Source: Arenicella xantha
GTDB lineage: Bacteria; Pseudomonadota; Gammaproteobacteria; Arenicellales; Arenicellaceae
Reading direction: 5' to 3'
Length of the DNA: 64,000 nucleotides
Assembly (NCBI RefSeq): GCF_003315245.1
Contig: NZ_QNRT01000003.1
Coordinates: 248,947-312,946, forward strand
Of the stretch, positions 7,478-14,309 are shown piece by piece (the first letter of the stretch is position 1; the number at the start of each line of letters is the position of its first letter). A program made the position numbers and the translations under genes. The notes under the pieces were generated by a model. That model saw nothing but the letters and a program-made list of their open reading frames with translations, was not told where the DNA came from and did no database searches.

Positions 7478-7538
7478 GTTTATTAAGTAAGCTGAGGCGC
7501 AAAGTCGTCAATAAGCTGCATTAATCGAGAATTTAGAC

Positions 7539-8072
7539 ATGTCTAGAATTGCAAATGCACCTGTCAGTATACCAAGCGGCGTTGAAGTGACGCTTGATGG
7601 TCAATTGGTTAAGGTGAAGGGATCGAAAGGTCAACTCGAGTGGAATGTCCATGAGTTGGTCACTGTCAAACAGGAAGATACTGACATAAAAGTATCGGCC
7701 AATCGAGACAGTAAAGAAGCCGTTGCGTTGGCTGGTACCACACGCGCGTTGGTCAATAATATGGTAACTGGCGTTAGCGCTGGTTTTCAGAAAAAGCTAA
7801 CAATTATAGGTGTTGGTTATCGTGCACAAGCACAAGGTCAAACATTGAATTTGACGTTGGGTTTTTCACACCCAGTTGCTTACGCCATTCCAGAAGGTAT
7901 CAAGGTTGAAACGCCAAGTAACACCGAGATCGTTGTTTCCGGTGTTGATAAGCAAGCCGTTGGCCAAGTAGCAGCAGAGATTCGCGCCTATCGTAAACCT
8001 GAGCCTTATAAAGGTAAGGGTGTTCGGTACGCTGATGAATATGTATTGCGTAAGCAAGCTAAGAAGAAGTAA
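7539..8072 (+). CDS. rplF: 50S ribosomal protein L6
   Basis: The 177-residue protein has the two-domain L6 pattern with [21 protein letters not shown] near the N-terminus and the C-terminal signature [15 protein letters not shown]6 lies near the sarcin-ricin loop where translation GTPases bind. It follows rpsH by 72 nt and precedes rplR by 14 nt. Confidence 0.98.
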
Positions 8073-8463: not shown

Positions 8464-8982
8464 ATGGCTGGTCCAAAAAGAAATTCACGTAACGATCGTG
8501 AGCCTGTAGATGAGAGCTTAGAGCAACTTATCAACGTACGTCGTGTAGCGAAAGTTGTAAAAGGTGGTCGAATTTTCGGTTTCTCGGCTTTGACAGTAGT
8601 CGGAGACGGTAACGGTAGCATCGGCATTGGTCGTGGTAAGTCGAAAGAGGTTCCTCTTGCTGTGTCTAAAGCGATGGATTCAGGTCGCCGCGATATGAAA
8701 AAAGTACATTTGGTAGGTGGCACACTACAGTATCCTGTAGTTGCAACTCACGCCGGATCTACCGTTGTCATGCGCCCGGCTTCACCGGGTACCGGCATCA
8801 TTGCTGGTGGCACCATGCGCGCAGTATTCGAAGCGGCCGGCGTTAAAGACGTTTTGGCTAAGTGTATTGGTTCTACTAATCCGGTAAACGTTGTTCGTGC
8901 GACTCTAAAAGGTTTGCGATCAATTAATAGTCCTGAATCTGTAGCGGCTAAGCGCGGCAAATCAGTAAAAGACATCTTATAA
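8464..8982 (+). CDS. rpsE: 30S ribosomal protein S5
   Basis: The 172-residue protein contains the S5 dsRBD-like N-terminal domain ([21 protein letters not shown], with [10 protein letters not shown]) and the C-terminal [18 protein letters not shown] region. S5 acts in decoding fidelity and mRNA unwinding. An unusually long 161-nt gap to rpmD follows and contains a structured inverted-repeat element. Confidence 0.98.
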
Positions 8983-9000
8983 GGTTAGGGCGATAGCGTA

Positions 9001-9088
9001 AGTAACGATAGCGGTCAGTCATGACGAAGGTTTATTCGTCGTGGACAGTGTAGAAATAGCACTGTTTACTGACCTCGCTAAGATTACT
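9001..9088 (+). promoter_or_regulatory. Candidate three-way-junction RNA element between rpsE and rpmD
   Basis: A compact fold can be drawn from the bases alone. The outer helix pairs 9001-9005 with 9084-9088; after a 3x3 internal loop, 9009-9013 pairs with 9076-9080, and after a 2-nt bulge 9014-9019 pairs with 9068-9073. Inside are two hairpins: 9020-9028 with 9035-9043 (nine pairs, one wobble, hexaloop), and 9045-9050 with 9060-9065, whose loop can close further as TA/TA around a GAAA tetraloop. The junction has almost no unpaired bases. It lies inside the spc operon, and rpmD after it lacks a strong Shine-Dalgarno site. It could be a cis-regulatory RNA, an RNase target or a mobile palindromic repeat; I do not recognise a named family. 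Confidence 0.55.
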
Positions 9089-9143
9089 GGCAAATTGACT
9101 CCTTTATAAGAAGCGTTCAAATTCAAACTTTCGGTATAGACAA

Positions 9144-9332
9144 ATGGCTAACGAAAAGAAAATTAAAGTGACTCTAGTCAAGAGCATGTTTGGTCGTGGT
9201 GCGAAGCACATGGCCTGTGTTAAAGGCTTAGGTTTACGTCGCATGCACCATTCGGTTGAGGTGATTGATACACCTGAAAACCGTGGCATGATTAACAAAG
9301 TTTCTTACCTTCTAAAAACGGAAGAGGTATAA
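9144..9332 (+). CDS. rpmD: 50S ribosomal protein L30
   Basis: This 62-residue protein matches bacterial L30: [16 protein letters not shown], then [22 protein letters not shown]. It sits between rpsE and rplO as expected. The bases before the ATG (GGTATAGACAA) give only a weak ribosome binding site, and a structured element lies about 55 nt upstream, so its translation may depend on upstream RNA structure. It ends 4 nt before rplO. Confidence 0.97.
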
Positions 9333-9336
9333 GACG

Positions 9337-9771
9337 ATGCGTTTAAATACTATTAAACCAGCTGAAGGTGCTAAGCACGCTCGTAAGCGTGTTGGTCGCG
9401 GTATTGGTTCTGGGACTGGAAAGACTGCGGGTCGTGGTCATAAAGGCCAAAAGTCGCGTACTGGCGGCAAAGTGCAAATCGGTTTTGAAGGTGGTCAAAT
9501 GCCAATTCAACGTCGCTTGCCAAAACGTGGTTTTCGTTCAGTAACGGCTAAAAATATGGCAGAGATTCGCTTGCATGAGTTGAATCTAGTTGAAGGTGAG
9601 GTCGTTGATTTGGCATCACTACGGTCAGCTGGCCTATTAAATGCTAGTCACCTTCGTGCCAAAGTGGTGTTGTCAGGTGAGCTGAATAAGGCAGTAACGC
9701 TAATGGGTATCGGAGCTACGGCTGGCGCTAAAGCGGCAATCGAAGCTGCCGGTGGCAAAGTAGAAGGCTAA
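9337..9771 (+). CDS. rplO: 50S ribosomal protein L15
   Basis: The 144-residue protein has the glycine- and basic-rich N-terminal extension of L15 ([20 protein letters not shown], near residues 18-37) that penetrates 23S rRNA, and the folded C-terminal domain ending [14 protein letters not shown]. It follows rpmD by 4 nt, so coupling is likely, and precedes secY. Confidence 0.98.
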
Positions 9772-9779
9772 TCCTCGGA

Positions 9780-9836
9780 TTAGTCTTTTATGATTTAAGT
9801 TTGCCCCGATAAAGCTATTACTACTAATAAGACTAA
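9780..9836 (+). other. Inverted repeat in the rplO-secY gap
   Basis: TTAGTCTT (9780-9787) is perfectly complementary to AAGACTAA (9829-9836), enclosing 41 nt. The closing stem would sit about 25 nt upstream of the secY ATG. No T-run follows. It may separate ribosomal-protein translation from secY expression, but the long loop keeps confidence low. Confidence 0.3.
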
Positions 9837-12574: not shown

Positions 12575-13198
12575 ATGGCAAGATATATAGGCCCAACTTG
12601 TAAGTTGGCGCGTCGTGAAGGCACGGATTTATTCCTTAAGAGCCCAGCACGTTCGCTTGAATCAAAGTGTAAGATTGATAAGGTACCTGGAGCGAACGCA
12701 CAGTCGCGTCGTCCACGTACTACTGTTTACGGTACTCAGCTCCGTGAAAAACAGAAAATGCGTCGAATCTACGGTGTATTAGAAAAGAAATTCCGTGCTT
12801 ATTATGCTGAAGCAGCTCGGGTAAAAGGATCAACTGGTGAAAACCTATTAACGTTGTTGGAGTCTCGACTTGATAACGTTGTTTACCGTATGGGTTTTGC
12901 TGTAACACGTGCAGAAGCACGTCAACTGGTCAGCCATAAATCAATCAAAGTGAATGGGCAGATCGTGAACATTCCTTCGTTTCATGTGAACCCTGGTGAC
13001 GAAATCGAAATTCGTGAGAAAGCCAAGAAGCAGCTTAGAATCAGTGCTGCGCTTGAAATTGCAGAGCAAATCGGCATCGCTGATTGGGTAAGCGTAGATT
13101 CTTCAGCGAAGAAAGGCGTTTTCCGAGCAGCTCCTGAACGAAACGAGTTGTCTGCAGGTATTGACGAGTCACTCGTAGTAGCACTTTACTCTAAGTAA
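12575..13198 (+). CDS. rpsD: 30S ribosomal protein S4
   Basis: From the ATG at 12575 the protein is 207 residues and begins [20 protein letters not shown], the family N-terminus; upstream in-frame codons are not S4-like. It has the S4 RNA-binding domain near residues 97-157 ([20 protein letters not shown], then [14 protein letters not shown]). S4 starts 30S assembly and in enterics represses the alpha operon. The segment after CKIDKVPG differs from the GQHGARK seen in E. coli S4. Confidence 0.97.
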
Positions 13199-13205
13199 GT
13201 TAGTT

Positions 13206-13236
13206 GGTCTTAAACGACGTTAAGTTGTTTAAGACC
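13206..13236 (+). other. Strong hairpin between rpsD and rpoA
   Basis: GGTCTTAAAC (13206-13215) and GTTTAAGACC (13227-13236) are perfect inverted repeats. GAC/GTT (one wobble) extends the stem to 13 pairs with a GTTAA loop. It starts 8 nt after the rpsD stop and has no T-run. A second small hairpin (13278-13282 with 13289-13293) lies just before the rpoA ribosome binding site. Together they could set the ratio of rpoA to ribosomal-protein mRNA. Confidence 0.5.
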
Positions 13237-13316
13237 GCTGTTACTTAGACGAAATAATATTCTAAACATTGACCTGCGCTCCGCCAGAGGAGCTGGGTAA
13301 ATAACGGAGATTTTCC

Positions 13317-14309
13317 ATGTCAGAAACAATTGAACAGCTGCTTACCCCGCGTTTCGTTGATGTAAATACCGAGGACGGAGTACGTTCAAAAGTAGTGATC
13401 GAACCTTTAGAGCGCGGTTTTGGTTACACGTTAGGTAATGCTTTGCGTCGAATTTTGTTGTCTTGTATTCCAGGCGCAGCAATTACCGATGTAAAGATCG
13501 ATGGTGTTTTACACGAGTACTCTTCAATCGAGGGCGTTCAAGAAGATGTCATTGACATTTTGTTGAACCTTAAAGGCGTTGCGATTAAGAAAGAGTTTGA
13601 TGAGCCAGTTACATTAACGCTGACGTCGACAGGCGAAGGTGTGTTGACTGCAGGCGACATACAGACCGTTTCTGACGTTGAGATCGCTAATCCTGAGCAC
13701 GTAATTGCTCATCTTTCTAAAGATGCTAAGTTTCATGCTGAGTTAACGGTGCGAAGTGGTCGCGGTTATCAAGTCTCTGAAGCTCGTAAGAGTGAGACTG
13801 AAGATAAAGAGATTGGCTTGATGCAACTCGATGCTACCTATAGTCCAGTGCTTAAGGTATCTTATTCAGTTGATGATGCTCGCGTAGAGCAACGTACCGA
13901 CCTTGATAAGTTAACGCTTAATATCGAGACTAACGGCACGATCGATCCTGAAGACGCAATTCGCAAGGCAGCCACTGCGCTGAGCCAACAGATTCAGGTT
14001 TTTGTTAATCTGGAAGAAATTGCTGCTGTTGCGCACGAAGAGAAAGAGCCGGAAGTAGATCCTGTATTGCTTCGTCCGGTTGATGAGTTAGAGCTGACAG
14101 TTCGATCTGCGAACTGCTTGAAAGCCGAGAGCATTTACTACATCGGCGACTTGGTTCTACGCTCAGAGGTTGAGTTGATGAAAACTCCAAACTTGGGCAA
14201 GAAATCGCTCACCGAGATCAAAGATGTTCTAGCACAACGTGGACTTTCTTTGGGAATGCAATTACAAAATTGGCCGCCAGCTGCACTTCGTGTAGACAGC
14301 GATCGATAA
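13317..14309 (+). CDS. rpoA: DNA-directed RNA polymerase subunit alpha
   Basis: The 330-residue protein matches RpoA. The N-terminal dimerisation domain contains [20 protein letters not shown] near residue 28, and the C-terminal domain that contacts UP elements and activators has [14 protein letters not shown] and [14 protein letters not shown] near residues 258-305. A GGAG site lies 7 nt before the ATG. It sits between rpsD and rplQ, the universal proteobacterial order. Confidence 0.98.

Follow-up and report, generated by a model that had tools for sequence, protein, structure and literature searches.

The window analyzed here is a 64,000-nt stretch of the Arenicella xantha genome. Within it, rpsE (ribosomal protein S5, 8464-8982, plus strand) precedes rpmD (ribosomal protein L30, 9144-9332, plus strand). 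The rpsE stop codon lies at 8980-8982 and the rpmD ATG at 9144, and the gap between them (8983-9143) has the 161 nt given in an earlier sequence-only reading of this DNA. That reading called the gap long for the operon. It is long for this junction, where E. coli has 3 nt and the congeners have 19-76 nt, but gaps elsewhere in the operon reach 384 nt within the genus (between rpsH and rplF). In three related congeners (L137, L139 and L140) the rpsH-rplF gap measures 315-384 nt and is predicted to fold very strongly (z to -7.8).

The computed minimum free energy (MFE) fold of 9001-9088 agrees pair for pair with the three-way junction that had been drawn from the letters. The three outer helices have their 5′ sides at 9001-9019 (AGTAA, TAGC, and GGTCAGT, plus strand) and their 3′ sides at 9068-9088 (ACTGACC, GCTA, and TTACT, plus strand), which gives 5+4+7 = 16 pairs, the number proposed. 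They enclose the expected 9-bp hairpin at 9020-9043 (plus strand, CATGACGAA-loop-TTCGTCGTG) and an 8-bp hairpin at 9044-9066 (plus strand, GACAGTGT-loop-GCACTGTT), and exactly one junction base stays unpaired, where about one had been predicted. The second hairpin had been placed at 9045-9065 with 6-8 pairs and a possible GAAA tetraloop; the 8 pairs form, but the MFE fold has a 7-base loop (9052-9058). These helices and hairpins come from the MFE fold and pair probabilities.

All fold energies are predictions on isolated RNA. For 9001-9088 the MFE is -36.0 kcal/mol, compared with -18.7 ± 2.75 for shuffled sequences (z -6.29), and none of 200 shuffles equals it. The probabilities of the key pairs stay at about 0.8-1.0 when the context is widened to 310 nt. 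Because these 88 nt were picked for folding, the z of the whole gap (-2.8 to about -4) is the fairer figure. As background we took same-strand gaps of 30-260 nt from 464 kb of sampled genome stretches, with genes called roughly by a simple script; 7% of these 144 gaps have z below -4, so the fold, though strong, is not unique. Some of the strongly folding background gaps resemble terminators or integron sites by look.

The three-way junction forms the top of a larger predicted structure of 137 nt (8975-9111). The span 9001-9088 is thus right for the junction but stops short of the whole, since 8975-8984 (TCTTATAAGG, plus strand) pairs with 9102-9111 (CTTTATAAGA, plus strand) in a basal stem with a mean pairing probability of 0.98. 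The 5′ arm of this stem consists of the last rpsE codons and includes the stop TAA. Between stem and junction, a lower inner stem with bulges (8988-8997 with 9090-9101, plus strand) appears in the MFE fold, without comparative support. Behind the hairpin, the linker (9112-9143, plus strand) is predicted to be largely unpaired (mean 0.27); the start region of rpmD is predicted to be partly unpaired (0.44). In the linker are two matches to the RNase E-like motif RN|WUU (9119 AAATT and 9127 ACTTT; motif from PMC5927463), which are degenerate, may be chance matches, and carry little weight. The sequence TTCGGTATAGACAA before rpmD (9130-9143, plus strand) is identical or nearly so in most congeners despite its weak Shine-Dalgarno match; a weak ribosome binding site had been noted here earlier. 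We found no Rfam covariance-model match for the structure, even at E 5, in line with the earlier statement that no described regulatory RNA is known at this position. Short repeats (CGATAGCG and TCAGTAAA/TTTACTGA) lie inside and adjoining the gap, and 9077-9110 has a possible partial resemblance to the rpsE tail (GCTAAG..GGCAAAT..TTATAAG).

We read the rpsE-rpmD junction in 14 congeners and in two members of a sister genus; three congeners had no usable locus and some genomes are incomplete. The three-way junction is absent from all congeners read. Its covariance model, run on 41 genomes, recovers its own locus and one chance-level match, and nothing in the 40 relatives. A hairpin with the rpsE stop codon in its 5′ arm is present in A. 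xantha and nine congeners, and these ten carriers form one clade in a tree built from eleven genes of the operon. Most of them have no more than 7-12 pairs, and three of the ten are near-identical in gap sequence. The plus strand folds better than the minus strand in seven of the ten and worse in one. In the nearest relative (G015, 82% identity over the operon genes), the basal stem TTTTGTAA/TTACAAAA is topped by a simple 12-bp hairpin.

The two arms of the basal stem change together. We aligned them by hand, as MAFFT gave no useful alignment of the gap arms. Over the ten species 94% of cells are paired, 6 of 11 pairs have double changes, and the covariation score is 0.384 against a shuffle mean of 0.112 (reached in none of 500 shuffles), a result biased towards structure because the alignment was made with pairing in view. 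With the register slid, the score is no more than about 0.13. A permutation test with less bias, which compares stop-arm pairing with that in shuffled gaps, gives a Fisher p of 0.005 over 17 species, only a guide since the species are related and not independent; three single species fall below 0.05. The rpsE tail reads Leu-stop in A. xantha and G015 and Met-Glu-stop in the other carriers, and the non-coding arm differs to match. Arm swaps agree most clearly in A. xantha and G015, where the native arm scores 17 and every foreign arm scores less (at most 13.5 and 12).

In this ten-species branch, then, the last rpsE codons pair with sequence behind the gene, and the arms change together. In A. 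xantha the predicted fold carries an enlarged hairpin top, the three-way junction, and leaves the linker behind the hairpin mostly open. Covariation in relatives, which the sequence-only reading had named as a check, is found in the stop-containing basal stem, outside the 88 nt that it had delimited; no homologue of the three-way junction turned up in the relatives searched. The comparative case is good for the basal stem, and the junction has none: only the stem is kept across species, by a hand-built alignment and more weakly in the less biased test.

The structure is specific to certain operon junctions. With a fixed 55-nt window at each of twelve operon stop codons in the ten-species group, rpsE-rpmD has a mean z of -3.16 (8 of 10 species below -2) and rplO-secY a mean z of -2.08 (6 of 10), while at the remaining ten junctions 0-2 of the 10 species fall below -2. 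Congeners outside the clade have no such structure at either place in this fixed window. At rplO-secY, a 14-bp hairpin (9760-9791, plus strand) takes in the rplO stop codon and is a sister element. A look-alike at rpsD-rpoA (13190-13249, plus strand) has the rpsD stop in its basal stem. The sequences of both differ between congeners. That hairpins stand at these places with unrelated sequences speaks for selection acting on local structure and not on a sequence. Genome-wide, stop-arm pairing in same-strand gaps is no more frequent than pairing of a control arm, in A. xantha or in G015.

The rpsE-rpmD hairpin is most likely a barrier between neighboring genes rather than a new type of regulatory switch. 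It is a stable predicted hairpin close behind the upstream gene and between two genes that are co-transcribed, as assumed from the operon. Our preferred explanation, to which we give close to an even chance, is that this hairpin, anchored on the rpsE stop, would shield the end of the upstream message and separate rpsE from rpmD. Ribosomes ending rpsE translation would melt the base of the hairpin, which would refold after they pass. Following cleavage in the unpaired linker, the refolded hairpin would stop 3′-to-5′ exonucleases and so protect the upstream message, as the malE-malF and galE hairpins of E. coli block exonucleases (PMC5927463, PMC11925234, PMC9239205). The branched top would be just a more stable barrier. 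Initiation of rpmD-rplO would also be kept apart from rpsE termination. In the gene pairs that have been tested, termination-reinitiation is almost lost once stop and start lie about 20 nt or more apart (PMC10666635). Against this limit the 161-nt gap suggests that rpmD probably initiates on its own, from its conserved weak site. An RNase-related role was one of three proposals made from the sequence, and it comes close to this barrier reading.

For the apical part, the chief rival is neutral or near-neutral palindrome turnover, with hairpins arising by template switching or local inverted duplication in gaps of this genus that are under weak constraint. The three-way junction would then be a jobless relic, even if the basal stem has a function. 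We consider this unlikely but a serious alternative: the apical part is unique to A. xantha, gaps in the genus expand and contract, strong folds are as common among same-strand gaps as given above (about 7%), and the short repeats lie in and beside the gap. Set against it are the covariation of the arms with the coding tail and the confinement of stop-proximal structure to particular junctions and one clade, with no genome-wide enrichment.

A wider proposal is that the stop-codon stems at rpsE-rpmD, rplO-secY, and perhaps rpsD-rpoA form a coordinated, ribosome-operated set. In this clade they would split the two operons, spc and alpha, into segments that decay or are translated separately, and the three-way junction would be the most elaborate member, possibly with its own ligand or protein. 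We regard this as rather improbable. Processing of the spc transcript at a site between rpsE and rpmD, by RNase III or another endonuclease, is slightly less probable still. Long stacked helices would suit it, but they occur in one species, and most carriers have pairings that are short for RNase III (7-12 pairs); the unpaired linker behind the hairpin is consistent with it.

An autoregulatory element that mimics rRNA and binds S5, L30, or S8 is suggested by the location within a ribosomal-protein operon, and had been proposed before, but we judge it very unlikely. E. coli rRNA served as the reference because no rRNA gene was found in the A. xantha assembly. A 16S match (TACTGGCAA..TTGACTC, at 9085-9101) is chance-like, as 161 of 300 shuffles reach its local alignment score; for the 23S match (TAAGTAACGAT..AGCGG) 12 of 300 do, before multiple-test correction. 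Sequence support for mimicry of the E. coli rRNAs is therefore absent. What looked like a match to the S8/S15 region of 16S rRNA scores no better than shuffles. A ribosomal-protein leader also keeps structure and sequence at the gene it regulates, and here the junction is absent from 40 relatives, the apical domain is unconserved, and the basal stem keeps its pairing and not its sequence, unlike a protein site. The main text of a survey of such leaders (r-leaders) does not mention rpmD, rplF, or rpsE (PMC7247131).

A mobile palindromic repeat (REP, MITE, or ERIC-like) or an integron attC site inserted in the gap is largely refuted, and we give it hardly any credence. The genome does contain Y1_Tnp matches and two integron integrases above the cut-off (L210 and L211), and TTATAAG flanks the putative insert. 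However, REP and MITE elements have several genomic copies, and BLAST against the whole genome and a single-sequence covariance search both give one copy (weak matches at E 0.002-5 are chance-like), so that the dispersed palindromic repeat suggested earlier is not supported. The junction was not found in phages or plasmids by BLAST, or in two exact scans of viral contigs. The end boxes of attC sites (RYYYAAC and GTTRRRY) are absent on either strand. We rejected TTATAAG as a target-site duplication, as its two copies are the two arms of the basal stem. Gaps at about 4393-6540 of L151 (contig C3 of genome G000) resemble integron attC sites; the integrases L210 and L211 are on other contigs. Least probable of all is a transcription attenuator or pause hairpin, since, although the hairpin stands ahead of downstream genes, 8850-9250 has no terminator-like or promoter-like site and the linker behind the hairpin is without a run of T.

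Two other elements in the window are better candidates for true leader RNAs than the rpsE-rpmD structure. Directly before rplF (7483-7540, plus strand) is TTAAGTAAGC, followed by a variable hairpin and GCTGCATTAAT(A/C/T)GAGA. The flanks are almost invariant in the genus and the inner hairpin varies. This element occurs in 14 genomes of the genus and, across 80 genomes, in no other genus; it is not in Rfam and is a candidate ribosomal-protein leader. Directly before rpoA (13266-13319, plus strand) is a hairpin with the invariant sequence CCGCCAGAGG. Its stem covaries (8 of 12 pairs changed on both sides; none of 500 shuffles reaches the score), and its strong matches are in 12 genomes, all of the genus; it too is not in Rfam. 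The window also contains a class A RNase P RNA (RF00010, 37385-37730, plus strand).

If the barrier reading is true, the locus holds a hairpin whose protein-coding 5′ arm includes the stop codon and which is kept by matched changes while sequence and shape turn over within a genus. Running from 7-bp stems to a branched structure of 137 nt, the carriers would then form a natural series in which to test how mRNA hairpins tune expression inside a ribosome-building operon. Should the apical part prove neutral instead, it would warn against inferring function from a striking fold in a single genome.

Several known systems resemble the rpsE-rpmD structure in part. In E. coli, the S8 site is in this same spc operon but at a different place, near rplX-rplE, and the rpsE-rpmD gap is the 3 nt given above; the site is reportedly the subject of Merianos 2004. 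REP and MITE repeats and attC sites share nested inverted repeats in a gap, but the structure here is single-copy, lacks attC boxes, and has no relatives that we found. The r-leaders are likewise structured RNAs inside ribosomal-protein operons (PMC7247131); unlike them, this one keeps pairing rather than sequence, and its rRNA similarity is not beyond chance. Closest in arrangement are the protective hairpins of malE-malF and other differentially decaying operons (PMC5927463) and of galE (PMC11925234, PMC9239205), where the upstream cistron has a stable hairpin at its 3′ end or behind it and the next gene follows. The galE hairpin is about 110-130 nt behind its stop, whereas the rpsE-rpmD stem holds the stop codon inside. 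Unlike these, the structure here is in a ribosomal-protein operon, has a stem that covaries within one clade, and has a branched version in one species; its block to exonucleases is a proposed one.
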